Source: Bacteroidota bacterium
GTDB taxonomy: Bacteria; Bacteroidota; Bacteroidia; Chitinophagales; Chitinophagaceae
Assembly (NCBI GenBank): GCA_018267965.1
Contig: JAFDXK010000005.1
Coordinates: 62,001 to 126,000 of the forward strand
Reading direction: 5' to 3'
Length of the DNA: 64,000 nucleotides
Translations under genes and position numbers: made by a program
The notes under the pieces: generated by a model
What the model was told of the DNA's origin: nothing
The model's input: only the letters and a program-made list of their open reading frames with translations
Database searches by the model: none
In this document: in pieces, positions 25,458 through 32,260 of the stretch
Numbering within the stretch: position 1 is the first letter of the stretch
Layout: the number at the start of each line of letters is the position of its first letter

Positions 25458-25919
25458 CTATTCGGGTAGTTTAAAGATGTATGCTTCGTTATATTCTACA
25501 TTAAACTTATCTAACATATCCTTATATTCTTCCATAAAGCTGTACTTCTTGTGATGTTCTTGCTGATTTGCGATATACTGTATAACAGTATCAATTTGAG
25601 ATTTGGAATAAGAAAATGCGCCATAACCCTCTTGCCACTGGAATTTATGACGTGTTAATTGCTCTTTATTTATCCATTCAGAGGAATCACCTTTTACAAA
25701 TTGCATGAGTTCAGATACTGACTGCGAAGGATGTAAACCAATAAGCATGTGTATGTGGTCTGTCATATTATTTATTGCCAGCATTTTGTGTTTATGGTTT
25801 TGAACAATTGCTGTAATATATAAACGCAACCTTTCATCCCATTCATAACTTAACACAGCAGCTCGGTATTTCACAGCAAATACAAAATGAATGTATAATT
25901 GTGTATAGGTGTTTGCCAT
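25458..25919 (-). CDS. IS200/IS605-type (REP-associated) Y1 transposase
   Basis: A 153-residue single-strand transposase of the Y1/HUH class. The HUH motif is His55-Ile-His57 (DHIHMLIG), and the catalytic tyrosine is probably Tyr115 (IQYIANQQEHH). These enzymes cut single-stranded DNA next to hairpins. No tnpB or guide-RNA gene accompanies it. Instead, four short palindromes of a shared style lie within 180 nt of its start codon, as expected for a REP-associated tyrosine transposase that acts on chromosomal palindromes rather than a classic IS. The reading frame is intact. Confidence 0.88.
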   Translation of the reverse strand: MANTYTQLYIHFVFAVKYRAAVLSYEWDERLRLYITAIVQNHKHKMLAINNMTDHIHMLIGLHPSQSVSELMQFVKGDSSEWINKEQLTRHKFQWQEGYGAFSYSKSQIDTVIQYIANQQEHHKKYSFMEEYKDMLDKFNVEYNEAYIFKLPE

Positions 25920-28707: not shown

Positions 28708-29964
28708 ATGAAACACAATAGTTGGTTTATTATCCTATTTAGTATCATTATTTCCGGCAATGCGTCTGCTACTACACGCAGGGTATTGTTCCTGGGCAAT
28801 AGTTACATTTTTACAAACAACCTGCCATCGCTCATACAGCAAATGGCAACTTCCATGGGCGATACGCTCATATATGATGAGAACAACATTGGTGGTTATA
28901 CTATGCAGGCTCATAGTACAGATGCCACGTCTATAAGTAAAATATACGCCCAACCCTGGGATATAGTGATATTGCAGGAGCAAAGTCAACGACCTGCTTT
29001 CGACCCGGCACAGGTGGCTACAGACACTTATCCTTATGCCAGAAAACTGGATAGTCTGGTGCGCGACCAGAGGGCGTGCACAGAAACCATGTTTTTTATG
29101 ACATGGGGCTACAAAAACGGTGATGCTTCTAACTGCGCTGCTTACCCGCCTATATGCACTTATGCAGGTATGCAACAACGCTTGCGAGAAAGTTACCTGC
29201 AAATGGCGCAGGATAATAATGCGATAGTGTCTCCTGTAGGTGCTGTATGGAAAATAGCAAGGGATAGTTTCCCTTCTATCGACCTCTATTCTGCCGATGA
29301 ATCTCATCCTAATATCAATGGTTCTTATTTGGCAGCTGCTGTTTTCTACACCGCTATATTTCATAAAAAACCTATCAACAGTAGTTACACCGCAGGGCTC
29401 AGCACTACCGATGCACAAAACCTGAGACGCATTGCAGGAAATATAGTGTTAGACAGTTTCACTAAATGGAACCAATACGGCAATTATACTTATGCTAATT
29501 TCAACAAGAGCTTAGCGGGCAATACAGTTACGCTCACCAATACATCTGTATATGCTACTGCCTACTACTGGACTTTTGGTGATGGTGGCAACAGCACTGC
29601 TACCAACACAAATCATAGCTATACTGCTAATGGCAAATACTACATCAACCTCACTGCATCTAATACCTGTTATAGCGAAACCAGGAAAGACAGCGTAACC
29701 ATCGGGGCTACAAGCATATCTAACCTGGTATCATCAGCCTCTATAGATGTGTATGCCATAGGCAATGGTAAGATGAGGATAAATAATCGCCACAACTCTG
29801 AAACGCTGCAAATAGAAATTGTAGACCTGACTGGCAAATCCATATACAAAACAACCGTAGCTGCAGGAAACACTATTGACGAGAGCTTTATTCCGGGCTT
29901 ATACCTGTACAGGATATGGGATGGCAACCATGCGCTACCTGCCAACAAGATATTTGTGTATTGA
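28708..29964 (+). CDS. Secreted SGNH hydrolase-like protein with PKD domain and T9SS tail
   Basis: A 418-residue exported protein with a signal peptide (1-22, NASA). An SGNH/DUF4886-type domain (about 24-235) has FLGNSYIFTNNLP as the nucleophile block and DESHPNINGSYLAA as the Asp-x-x-His block. A PKD-like beta-sandwich (about 260-335) contains YYWTFGDGGNS. The last 80 residues form a T9SS type A sorting domain (VDLTGKSIYKTT ... PGLYLYRIWDG ... KIFVY). It probably removes acyl groups from a polysaccharide or other ester outside the cell. The gene is single and is followed by the nested repeat region. Confidence 0.88.
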   Translation: MKHNSWFIILFSIIISGNASATTRRVLFLGNSYIFTNNLPSLIQQMATSMGDTLIYDENNIGGYTMQAHSTDATSISKIYAQPWDIVILQEQSQRPAFDPAQVATDTYPYARKLDSLVRDQRACTETMFFMTWGYKNGDASNCAAYPPICTYAGMQQRLRESYLQMAQDNNAIVSPVGAVWKIARDSFPSIDLYSADESHPNINGSYLAAAVFYTAIFHKKPINSSYTAGLSTTDAQNLRRIAGNIVLDSFTKWNQYGNYTYANFNKSLAGNTVTLTNTSVYATAYYWTFGDGGNSTATNTNHSYTANGKYYINLTASNTCYSETRKDSVTIGATSISNLVSSASIDVYAIGNGKMRINNRHNSETLQIEIVDLTGKSIYKTTVAAGNTIDESFIPGLYLYRIWDGNHALPANKIFVY

Positions 29965-29984: not shown

Positions 29985-30046
29985 TGTTTCACGTTGTTTC
30001 ATTGTTTCAGGGATAGAGTTGTGAAACGGTGAAACAGATGAAACAG
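29985..30046 (+). repeat. Module A, left arm (GTTTCA/TGAAAC clusters)
   Basis: Three copies of TGTTTCA, a central GGGATAGAGTTG, then three copies of TGAAAC. The central part is not palindromic, yet an inverted copy of it (GGGATGGTGTTG) is found in the right arm, so this is a true repeat pair with A'. Confidence 0.85.
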
Positions 30047-30069
30047 ACCCCCCCCTTACGGACAAACTT

Positions 30070-30137
30070 CATTTCAGTCCATTTCAGCATTTCATTGTTT
30101 CAGCCCTGAAATGGTGAAATGGGTGAAACGGTGAAAT
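30070..30137 (+). repeat. Module B, left arm (ATTTCA/TGAAAT clusters)
   Basis: Three ATTTCA copies and one GTTTCA, then TGAAAT and TGAAAC copies with matching spacing (GAAATGGTGAAATGGG). An inverted, diverged counterpart (B') lies at 31055-31111. Confidence 0.82.
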
Positions 30138-30140
30138 AAG

Positions 30141-30193
30141 CTGTTCCAACCTGTTCCGGTTGTTCCATCCCCATAAGTTGGAACATGGAACAA
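30141..30193 (+). repeat. Module C, left arm (TGTTCC/GGAACA clusters)
   Basis: Three TGTTCC copies, a spacer, then two GGAACA copies. The inverted counterpart C' is at 31001-31052. Confidence 0.82.
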
Positions 30194-30197
30194 CACA

Positions 30198-30292
30198 CGT
30201 CATTATTCAGCTTCGCTCCATGAGAAAAGTTGCGAGGGAGTATTTGCGAAAGCAAATAGAAACGTGGCAATCTCTGGGAATGAGGGTAATTT
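30198..30292 (+). repeat. Module D, left arm (CGTCATT...GCAATCTC element)
   Basis: It starts CGTCATT and contains GCGAGGGAGTATTTGCGA, then GGCAATCTCTGGGAATG. The inverted copy D' ends at the ORF stop. Compared with D' this copy carries about 27 extra bases after CGTCATT. Elements with CATTGCGAG...GCAATCTC ends are, from memory, scattered in many bacterial genomes. Confidence 0.82.
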
Positions 30293-30323
30293 ATCGTAAT
30301 TTCATAACTACTTGGCATAATTA

Positions 30324-30929
30324 ATGCGTAATCCTTTTTATAGTACATTTTTGGGGTGTTTTATTATATCTATATGCTTGGGGCTACCATACTTCATACC
30401 ATGTAGTAAACAATTCTTATCCTCTCATTCAAGATTAGATGGTCTATTACTAGGTGTATTATCATCTGTATTTCTTCTTCTATTTATTGAAATCATTAAT
30501 TGGTACAGAGATAAAAGGTTATATGGGTTTATTAAAGGAAAATATAAACGTATTAGTATTTATCAAACTAATGAAAACGATGCAAGAGGGAATAACGATA
30601 CTATCTACAGTGAATTAGAGTATTATAAAAGTATAGATTGGGACATTCATTTAAAGTATCATTATAATGGTATTTATACTGGAACAGCTGAATATTATAA
30701 CCATTCTTCTTCTGATAACAAGAAAACACTTGTAAGTATTACGCTCAACTTAAATACTGCAAATAGAATGATAGGTGAAGGGAGTTATAAATACATTAGT
30801 AAAAATGATTTCGGTATATATAGTTTTCATGTTGACAATGATAATCATAACAGAATCATATTAACATATAAGAATACAATCCCTAGTGGTCTTGCTAGAG
30901 GTTATGAAATATGGGAAAAAGTAAAATAA
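30324..30929 (+). CDS. Hypothetical two-TM, beta-rich membrane protein inside the nested repeats
   Basis: This 201-residue protein has two N-terminal transmembrane helices (about 8-27 and 39-60) and a soluble domain of about 135 residues. The soluble part is rich in Tyr, Ile, Asn and alternating beta-like patterns (YNGIYTGTAEYYN, SITLNLN, GEGSYKY, FGIYSFHVD) and ends EIWEKVK. I recognise no family by motif. The architecture resembles small 2TM-plus-beta-barrel effectors such as Cap15, but no nucleotide cyclase gene is near, so this is only a structural analogy. Codon use looks more AT-rich than in its neighbours. The stop codon lies inside inverted repeat D', so the gene may have been truncated by, or travel with, the repeats. 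Confidence 0.6.
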   Translation: MRNPFYSTFLGCFIISICLGLPYFIPCSKQFLSSHSRLDGLLLGVLSSVFLLLFIEIINWYRDKRLYGFIKGKYKRISIYQTNENDARGNNDTIYSELEYYKSIDWDIHLKYHYNGIYTGTAEYYNHSSSDNKKTLVSITLNLNTANRMIGEGSYKYISKNDFGIYSFHVDNDNHNRIILTYKNTIPSGLARGYEIWEKVK

Positions 30930-30991
30930 CCCACATTCCCCGAGATTGCTTTGTCCATATTTACATTCGTAAATATTCCCTCGCAATGACG
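30924..30991 (-). repeat. Module D', right arm
   Basis: The reverse complement reads CGTCATTGCGAGGGAATATT ... GCAATCTCGGGGAATG and pairs with module D across the ORF. Its inner edge includes the ORF's last codons and stop. Confidence 0.85.
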
Positions 30992-31000
30992 TCAGTAGTT

Positions 31001-31052
31001 TTGTTCCACAAATAGCAATGGAAAACTTGGAACAACTGGAACATTGGAACAA
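31001..31052 (-). repeat. Module C', right arm
   Basis: One TTGTTCC, a spacer, then three GGAACA copies: the mirror order of module C. Confidence 0.82.
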
Positions 31053-31054
31053 GA

Positions 31055-31111
31055 TTTCCCATTTCACCATTTCACAATACCCACACCTGAAATGATGAAA
31101 TGACTGAAATA
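31055..31111 (-). repeat. Module B', right arm
   Basis: Two CATTTCA copies, a spacer, then three TGAAAT copies; inverted counterpart of module B. Confidence 0.8.
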
Positions 31112-31114
31112 GTG

Positions 31115-31193
31115 TAAGGATACCCCCTTGCTCCTCTCTTTAGCAAGGAGGGGATGTTGAACGAAGTGAGACAGGAGAGGTCTAACGAAACAC
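31115..31193. repeat. Extra repeat E between B' and A'
   Basis: It contains CCCCTTGCTCC, later AGCAAGGAGGGG, then GAACGAAGTGAGACAGGAGA. It is a short stem-bearing element with no full counterpart in the left arm, where only CCCCCCCCTTACGGAC lies between A and B. It appears to be a later insertion, or a copy lost on the left. Confidence 0.65.
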
Positions 31194-31194
31194 C

Positions 31195-31257
31195 TTGTTT
31201 CACTGTTTCACAACACCATCCCTGAAACAATGAAACAAATGAAACAACATGAAACAG
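31195..31257 (-). repeat. Module A', right arm
   Basis: Two TGTTTCA copies, CAACACCATCCC, then four TGAAACA copies. The centre is the inverted form of the centre of module A. Confidence 0.85.
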
Positions 31258-31277: not shown

Positions 31278-32249
31278 TTACTCCTTCCCGTGTTTAGAAT
31301 CGTGCCACACATTAGCCAGCTTCCATTCAAGCTGCTGTGTGTACGGCGCTTTGCGTTCAGGGCAGTTTTCCAAAGCGCATAGTTTGCATTGGTAGGGCTG
31401 GCAGGCATCTATATGTACAAATACTTCTACCCTGTTCTCGAAACGTTGTTTTATCATACTCTCCAGCACATGTATTTCTGCATCAGCTTCCTTCACACTA
31501 TAGTACCAGGGCAGTGTCATGTGTGCATCTAAGTGCAGCATATCGCCGTATTGCATCACCCTCAGGTTGTGCAGGTCTACCCAATCATTTTTGCGGTTTT
31601 GTTGTAAAAAGGTAATCACATCCTGCAATAGTTTCTCGTCAGCTTCATCCATTATCCCCGACATCGACCTCCGCACCAGCTTATAGCCCGTAACCATAAT
31701 GACCACAGAAAACACCAAAGCCACTACACTATCCAGCCATTGCAATTTGGTAATTAAAATAAGCGCCAAACCTATTACTATAGCAAAGGTGGAATACGCA
31801 TCTACCCTCAGGTGCTTGCCTGCGCTCTCTACTATCAGTGATTTCTGTTTCTTACCCACCTTCACTGCGTAAGTACCTACTATAAAGTTCAGCACACCGG
31901 TAGCTCCTGTTATGTATATACCTACGTCCAACTGGTGTAGCGGTTTGGGTTGCAGCAACTGGTCTATGGCCTCGTACACTATCATCAATCCTGCTATAAA
32001 TATCAGCGAACCTTCTACCGCACTCGATACAAACTCTGCCTTGCTATGCCCGTAAGGATGGTCAAAATCTCTGGGTTTGGCTGCCAGTATAATGCTGTAC
32101 AACCCGATAAAACCTGCAATTACATTCACCGTACTTTCCAGCGCATCGGTTAATACAGTTACAGAATGCGTAAGGTACCATGCCCAAAGCTTGCCTATGA
32201 AGAGTACTACTGAAAGAATAGCAATATTGCGCTGTAAACGGATGGGCAT
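31278..32249 (-). CDS. Cation diffusion facilitator (CDF) metal transporter
   Basis: A proton-coupled exporter of divalent metals (Zn, Fe, Mn or Co; the specific ion cannot be read). The 323 residues contain six transmembrane segments. TM2 carries the metal-site Asp in TDALESTVN, the DHPYGHSKAE loop follows, and TM5 carries the second HxxxD-type site (HLRVDAYST). A cytoplasmic ferredoxin-like domain extends to about 280. The C-terminal tail is Cys-rich (CQPYQCKLCALENC) and may bind metal. The start is ATG 32249; a TTG at 32255 overlaps the promoter box and is unlikely. Confidence 0.93.
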   Translation of the reverse strand: MPIRLQRNIAILSVVLFIGKLWAWYLTHSVTVLTDALESTVNVIAGFIGLYSIILAAKPRDFDHPYGHSKAEFVSSAVEGSLIFIAGLMIVYEAIDQLLQPKPLHQLDVGIYITGATGVLNFIVGTYAVKVGKKQKSLIVESAGKHLRVDAYSTFAIVIGLALILITKLQWLDSVVALVFSVVIMVTGYKLVRRSMSGIMDEADEKLLQDVITFLQQNRKNDWVDLHNLRVMQYGDMLHLDAHMTLPWYYSVKEADAEIHVLESMIKQRFENRVEVFVHIDACQPYQCKLCALENCPERKAPYTQQLEWKLANVWHDSKHGKE

Positions 32250-32252
32250 AAA

Positions 32253-32260
32253 CAAAAGTA
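32253..32260 (-). promoter_or_regulatory. -7 box abutting the CDF transporter start
   Basis: The minus strand reads TACTTTTG (exact TAnnTTTG), followed by TTT and ATG. This predicts an essentially leaderless transcript. Confidence 0.55.

Follow-up and report, generated by a model that had tools for sequence, protein, structure and literature searches.

Mirrored word arrays around a small gene: probable protein-addressed ends of exchangeable cassettes, many with antiviral-type genes

Iteron origins recognised by plasmid Rep proteins, and the helicase and primase system of RSF1010, bring together short tandem words at regular spacing and the protein that reads them with a ring helicase and a primase. 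In integrons, a gene cassette consists of one gene and one palindromic site that form a unit. Defence hotspots in mobile elements, among them Tn7-like transposons, have a conserved frame that holds interchangeable defence genes (PMC8649781). For Tn4555, a passage of one 2026 report lists TnpA, an integrase, TnpC, an excisionase, an AAA ATPase, DUF6371, a hypothetical protein and CfxA (PMC13183296), and a passage of another states that optimal excision needs a further Tn4555 protein, the ATPase not being named in that passage (PMC5704250). The ATPase and DUF6371 genes that recur below are already known parts of Tn4555.

A mirrored block and its recurrence

The window (the whole 64,000-nucleotide stretch of Chitinophagaceae DNA analysed here) holds at positions 29985-31257, between two convergent stop codons, the modules A, B, C and D, an ORF of 201 aa, and then D', C', B' and A':

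28708..29964, + strand: DUF4886/PKD gene, stop codon 20 nt before A
29985..30045, + strand: array A, word TGTTTCA, three + three copies, loop GGGATAGAGTTG
30070..30138, + strand: array B, word ATTTCA
30140..30195, + strand: array C, word TGTTCCA
30196..30295, + strand: module D, REP-type repeat (CGTCATT...GCAATCTC)
30324..30929, + strand: cargo ORF between the arms, 201 aa
30924..31000, - strand: module D', D in inverted copy
31001..31052, - strand: array C', inverted, degenerate
31058..31112, - strand: array B', inverted
31112..31186, no strand assigned: extra repeat within the right arm, no left counterpart
31187..31257, - strand: array A', inverted copy of A, loop included
31278..32255, - strand: cation-efflux gene, stop codon 20 nt from the end of A'

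An earlier note on this DNA had described the mirrored, inverted order of the modules and A' as repeating the loop of A in inverted copy, and both observations were reproduced. Judged against 300 dinucleotide shuffles (mean 28, maximum 44), the inverted alignment of the whole arms scores 116 (z 23) and the direct one 47, and the single modules also stand out in inverted alignment (z 12.9 for A, 9.6 for B, 8.4 for C and 11.6 for D). Because the alignment also takes in pieces of the spacers, the arms behave as one inverted repeat of about 300 nt, as the note had proposed. Same-word inverted arrays around one gene are clear for A and C and weak for B, whose inverted score is barely above its direct score (30.9 vs 26.4) and which ties in a second comparison restricted to same-word pairs. 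The extra repeat of the right arm, approximately 75 nt long (31112-31186), belongs to a second repeat type (CCCCTTGCTCC...AGGAGAGG), and similar-looking repeats lie beside other cassettes, such as L018 and L038.

Two further claims of the note held in part. Modules A, B, B' and A' do fold well on themselves (z -5.2, -5.0, -5.9 and -3.6), while C folds weakly (-2.8) and C' does not (-1.0); and while A, B and C are arrays of the words TGTTTCA, ATTTCA and TGTTCCA, D is a REP-type repeat that contains no word array and has 12 further matches in the same genome. We take module D to resemble the REP elements that occur with Y1 transposases. An IS200-like Y1 transposase gene (Y1_Tnp) lies at window positions 25458-25919 (- strand) and is a possible partner of the module D repeats. 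The 201-aa cargo, the largest ORF within the block, has two hydrophobic segments starting at residues 7 and 36; it gave one sub-cut-off Pfam match and no family above the cut-off, no PADLOC match and no relative in the genome contigs searched. The regular direct repeats and unique spacers of a CRISPR array are absent from the block, judged by its repeat families and spacings, as the note had also concluded. Terminal inverted repeats, as in an insertion sequence or MITE, are present; many copies with one common end sequence were not found, and the words vary by locus. These general, non-dedicated searches gave no match to a known IS or attC.

A strict pattern scan for TGTTTCA in the window's own genome yielded 16 matches, 14 of which fall within two inverted pairs: the one in the window and one at C5:1017524-1018813 around a 324-aa gene. 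The remaining two lie at a mixed-word site (C9:19297) and inside a 492-aa ORF (C8:107539). A second nested set, or onion, surrounds a 590-aa ATPase/methyltransferase gene at C5:960880-963971, with shells of TGTCCC, TGTGCA, TGTCCGG, TGTCCAA and TTCCGGGA plus REP; its right side is mirrored but for one swap, and its left arm contains a small gene flanked by other repeats. This inserted gene (L038, 1083-1580) encodes a 130-aa endonuclease-like protein, presumably of DUF559 type, and is surrounded by CCCCCTC repeats. Three more TGTCCC arrays occur within 2.3 kb at C5:1099699-1101956.

Across 15 genomes of the genus and three words, a second array of the same word lies 250-4000 nt away for 71 of 85 array sites (17/19, 34/42 and 20/24 by word) where random placement gives means below 1, in a test that is blind to orientation. 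Of the 14 unpaired sites, two do have partners, which escaped the strict pattern; the two TGTTTCA sites left without a partner lie near contig ends. Backward-read control patterns gave 0 matches. A looser scan flagged 2 places in 11 control stretches of the own genome (L086-L096) and 3 places in 8 stretches from G009 and G014 (L129-L136), which by eye hold no word arrays of this kind. The note had named single, random occurrence of the arrays as the finding that would make the symmetry coincidental; genome-wide, arrays instead pair around genes, and with the arm alignment this places the symmetry beyond chance. When orientation was scored for 51 same-word pairs in 26 loci, the inverted alignment was better in 37, the direct one in 12 (5 in L127, 4 in L081 and one each in L077, L082 and L124), and two tied. 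TAACTG-containing loops were found in arrays of different words (TGTCCCA, TGCTCCA, TGTCCA), as if, to judge from these sequences, the words had been rewritten around a retained loop.

A candidate reader of the words

The candidate reader is a 352-aa AAA_25 ATPase with a C-terminal helix-turn-helix (HTH), found at 20 places in 10 of the 15 genus genomes, with a reading frame free of stops in all 20. A same-word array pair lies directly behind it in 17 of these 20 places at the strict scan and in two more (L122, L112) with looser settings; L114 showed none. Using a profile of 17 ATPase copies, 425 relatives were found among genome contigs in one scan, and the best 80 of these, together with three loci from the own genome, were examined as a set of 83. 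An array is present at the ATPase stop codon in 73 of the 83 Bacteroidota loci, compared with 1 of 441 control windows (57 others, beyond locus ends, were dropped), and no clear array was seen there in the other 10. In L177 (RUG11609), where the stop itself has no clear array, a nine-copy GTTCAA array lies 3452 nt behind it, and in L199 (RYN_297) four successive TGTAAC arrays lie 0-880 nt behind the stop. The spacing of words peaks at 9 nt (188/266), and the commonest arrangement is 3+3 (22/74).

The relation between word and protein was examined in the 74 of 83 loci that remained after nine with fewer than four words were dropped. The word is predicted best by the recognition helix, which ranks at the top of 346 seven-residue windows with a partial r of 0.63 given core distance (median over the windows, 0.015). 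In a permutation of one helix window (r 0.56), 0 of 2000 rounds reached the observed value, and without the TGTAACA and TCGTAC classes r is 0.67 (n=39). In leave-one-out prediction, with five loci of ambiguous word TGTTCA grouped under TGTTCAC, neighbours below 70% core identity gave 0.79 for the helix, 0.26 for the core and 0.16 at random (n=65), and neighbours below 60% gave 0.64, 0.30 and 0.12 (n=18). The helix/word pairs include HMKVSR with TGTAACA, EGA[IV]RK with TCGTAC, LGAVNK with TGTTCAC, K[ST]TV.R with TGTCCCA, and AATVNR with TGTTTCA.

Individual pairs of loci illustrate the same relation. L120 and L125, whose orthology is marked by a common neighbour gene (87% identical), have ATPase cores that are 92.7% identical and last 40 residues that are 47.5% identical; their words (ATTCACG and TGCTCAC) and their cargo differ. 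Conversely, L116 and L121 are 72% identical in the core and 92.5% in the last 40 residues, and share the word TGTCCCA. L117 and L118, two ATPases from a single genome with 92% overall identity, stand beside GCCCACG and TGCTCCA, respectively; core dN/dS is approximately 0.1 in both L117/L118 and L120/L125. The predicted ATPase model (mean pLDDT 68, HTH approximately 90) matches KaiC and DnaB with E near 1e-8 and TM of only 0.3-0.6. A solved-structure match for the HTH, 8vd6, was set aside on account of its origin in protein design. Based on sequence comparison, predicted recognition of the word by the HTH of the ATPase is strongly supported.

The window block consists of arrays only, and the three ATPase matches of its genome (C5:1018828, C9:542533 and C9:21111) lie outside the window. 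Array A has the same word as the array pair at the own ATPase locus L009, and a related loop (89% over 62 nt, 84% over 60 nt), which pairs word A with a matching ATPase of the same genome; word C resembles, in a loose fit, the looser array of the own ATPase L112; and word B has no reader among the three. For these reasons the most fitting reading of the block is a cassette that lacks an ATPase of its own, probably with one currently readable address and two that are doubtful or lost. Seven genomes of the genus have TGTTTCA arrays; of these, only G000 and G011 were found to encode an ATPase whose helix is of the TGTTTCA type. Additionally, array pairs persist in G012 and G014, where no ATPase was detected, which argues that a resident reader is not needed for pair survival.

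The same ATPase and array occur in Tn4555. In the plasmid record, the order is integrase, tnpC, excisionase, ATPase and a DUF6371-type zinc-ribbon gene. A few codons past the helix KSTVNR, and still inside the end of the annotated ATPase gene, comes a TGTCCCA array, in agreement with the word-helix relation. A Chryseobacterium locus (L172) similarly runs integrase, 234-aa gene, HTH_17, 98-aa gene, ATPase, array, DUF6371. The predicted model of DUF6371 (mean pLDDT 68, TOPRIM part approximately 90) matches DnaG primases (best E 3.7e-5, TM 0.2-0.5), and a DnaG-type primase is the likely role, by modelling, of this zinc-ribbon domain of unknown function. An ATPase and a primase around an iteron-like array would suggest a start of replication.

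The number of arrays follows what lies behind the ATPase. Among the 74 loci with an array, a second same-word array downstream was found in 0 of 50 with DUF6371 directly behind, within 450 nt (three of these canonical loci have a further word cluster upstream), in 9 of 9 loci where a gene displaces DUF6371, and in 13 of 15 where DUF6371 was not detected, one of the 13 (L199) having no room for a gene. In the 22 loci with a second array, the inverted alignment is clearly better in 14 (margin >5) and the direct one in one (L186), the others being close. Of 42 canonical loci, 33 have an integrase upstream; among 17 cargo-type loci with sufficient sequence, the count is 0. Of 22 cargo-type loci, 13 showed no primase behind them, one of these 13 having just 1.2 kb of sequence. 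Behind the own TGTTTCA ATPase (L009, 676-1568, - strand), the DUF6371 primase gene is split over two reading frames. As the primase is often not found, and split at L009, replication is not obviously the present job of cargo-type loci.

Cargo genes and orthologous slots

Two genera of the family were seen to have cargo-type loci, the window's own and g83 (L244, and L161/L193, taken to be G188 from the identical ATPase end). In all 19 of 19 loci the cargo is the ATPase's neighbour and points the same way, and arrays sit at the ATPase stop codon and mostly also near that of the cargo (70-170 nt off in L111, L123, L124 and L128). In a scan of one gene per locus with PADLOC or Pfam (L127 with Pfam only; L112 left out), 12 of 19 ATPase-locus cargoes contained defence-type domains: Fic, TIR or TIR-like (5, one of them SEFIR), SIR2 (2), OLD/AAA_15 (2), AIPR/AbiU and PDC-S31. 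At sites without an ATPase, such a domain was found in 1 of 8 cargoes (the L038 protein, by Pfam). None of the cargo proteins scanned is a transposase. Related cargo can stand under different words, as in L111 and L117 (64% over 213 aa) and in L009 and L193 (40% identical).

To follow one orthologous slot, the cation-efflux gene was used as the marking neighbour in 15 genomes. Array pairs are present in five (G000, G004, G006, G009, G014), a single array in one (G007), and no array at the scan's threshold in nine (one of them G010, whose copy of the gene is spread over two contigs). The words at this slot differ, save that G009 equals G014 and G000 equals G006 (TGTTTCA), and the bracketed ORFs of G000, G004, G006 and G014 have no mutual similarity (the short interior of G009 was left out). 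In G006, the cargo between TGTTTCA arrays (L079, 10224-10971) consists of two overlapping ORFs in different frames. The empty site for which the earlier note had suggested a search exists: the efflux gene abuts the RNase H gene in G001, G003, G005 and G013 (gap -9 to 11 nt). In G009, an insert of 724 nt separates this pair of stop codons and has the outermost TGTCCA arrays at both of its ends, which favours the note's suggestion of the ends of a small mobile element. No target duplication was seen at this insert beside the empty junctions, which are so diverged that one may be hidden.

G009 and G014 carry perfect three-shell onions at the window's orthologous site, next to which G014 has an additional 189-aa ORF. 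At another locus of these genomes (L081, L082), five array types occur on both sides with the right-side order scrambled, so perfect nesting is not universal. An additional gene of G009, and the four-type array block that accompanies it, are both absent from G014. One shell per insertion, and with it the nested insertion series that the note had considered, is not supported, since arms and clusters look copied as whole blocks. For array type c, left and right copies are 93% identical in G009, orthologous copies are 81% and 76%, and left and right in G014 only 79%; within-genome concerted evolution is clear for type c only, weak for a+b and mixed for e and d.

Interpretation and comparison with known systems

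With somewhat better than even chances, in our estimate, the block is a single-gene cassette with mirrored protein-binding arrays at its ends, addressed by an ATPase and descended from a Tn4555-type site. Each array, about 3+3 copies of a 7-nt word at 9-nt pitch, would serve as the address for a DnaB/KaiC-like ring-type ATPase, which would recognise the word through its C-terminal HTH, presumably by direct binding. The ancestor of the array would be the lone origin-like site that lies, in Tn4555-type elements, between the ATPase and DUF6371, the DnaG-like primase; in the window's genus, where no integrase was seen near the ATPase, the array would have been duplicated so that two copies, mostly inverted to each other, flank one gene, frequently of defence type, and cassettes of this sort would also occupy other sites without an ATPase, as in the window. 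The array may then act as a helicase-loading, origin-like site, an ATPase loaded on both ends may copy or mobilise the gene between them, and the shells A, B and C may record successive or alternative ATPase specificities. More speculatively, and with clearly less confidence, this could be a recombinase-free system in which a ring helicase recognises a programmable word in each of the two mirrored ends and copies or moves a defence gene between slots, helix and word changing together to create non-interfering addresses and the shells being an address record or giving access to several helicases. A literature search, with most subscription journals outside its reach, noticed no report of a word-helix relation, paired arrays or cassettes.

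The same recognition could instead serve control, with ATPase at both ends silencing, insulating or activating the cargo and neither copying nor moving it. We regard this as rather unlikely. It would fit the open ATPase frames (20/20) where the integrase (0/17) and often the primase are not found, the cargo codirectional with and adjacent to the ATPase in every one of the 19 loci, and the arrays at the stop codons of the ATPase and, in most loci, close to those of the cargo. It leaves unexplained the cassettes of G012 and G014, the inverted block copies with matching loops, and the turnover of words and content at one site. It is because cassettes with block-copied ends occur at ATPase-free sites that we place somewhat more weight on loading or mobilisation.

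That the arrays are the terminal repeats of a transposon with an unknown transposase, the ATPase being a passenger or regulator with shared words, seems improbable to us: the insert limited by outermost arrays at an otherwise empty junction and the mostly inverted ends (37/51 pairs; direct 12, tie 2) would fit, but no scanned cargo protein is a transposase, target duplication was not seen, and a shared transposase would not cause words to vary by locus and track the ATPase helix. Least credible of all, and very improbable, are RNA hairpins at gene ends that act as bidirectional terminators or stabilisers, even though arrays adjoin stop codons and several fold well. The spacers between words are barely complementary (0.35 vs 0.295 +/- 0.03 shuffled) though the words are kept, and the words track a DNA-reading protein helix across the phylum, which together disfavour the structured RNA on both sides that the note had allowed. 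Paired arrays also share words, and often loops, over 0.4-3 kb, and no Rfam family was found, the two matches in the window block both lying under gathering scores. The first interpretation of this locus is thus partly supported, and the repeats look like the protein-addressed ends of exchangeable cassettes.

These findings make a helix-to-7-nt-word relation readable from sequence in a widespread mobile-element family that includes Tn4555, the carrier of cfxA, and link this family to a place where defence-type genes are swapped. The relation predicts binding sites, separate specificities and small-cassette ends missed by annotation, and natural helix swaps are available for tests of DNA recognition.

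Tn4555-type integrative mobilizable elements have the same ATPase family, a word array just after the recognition helix and the DUF6371 gene. They differ in having an integrase, an excisionase and one array, whereas none of these genes is present in the window block, and in its relatives a single cargo gene stands between two arrays. Compared with iterons and RSF1010, the reader of the word is here part of the ATPase, the array is mirrored, and array pairs bracket a gene. As in integron cassettes, one gene and its site go together, the extra gene of G009 being present along with a whole array block; unlike them, the ends are mostly inverted, the words vary by locus, and no tyrosine integrase was detected near 17 of 17 cargo-type ATPase loci. 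Arrays A-C are unlike REP elements in that they are not of the D type. Finally, what sets the present loci apart from defence hotspots such as Tn7-like transposons is the word-addressed mirrored ends.
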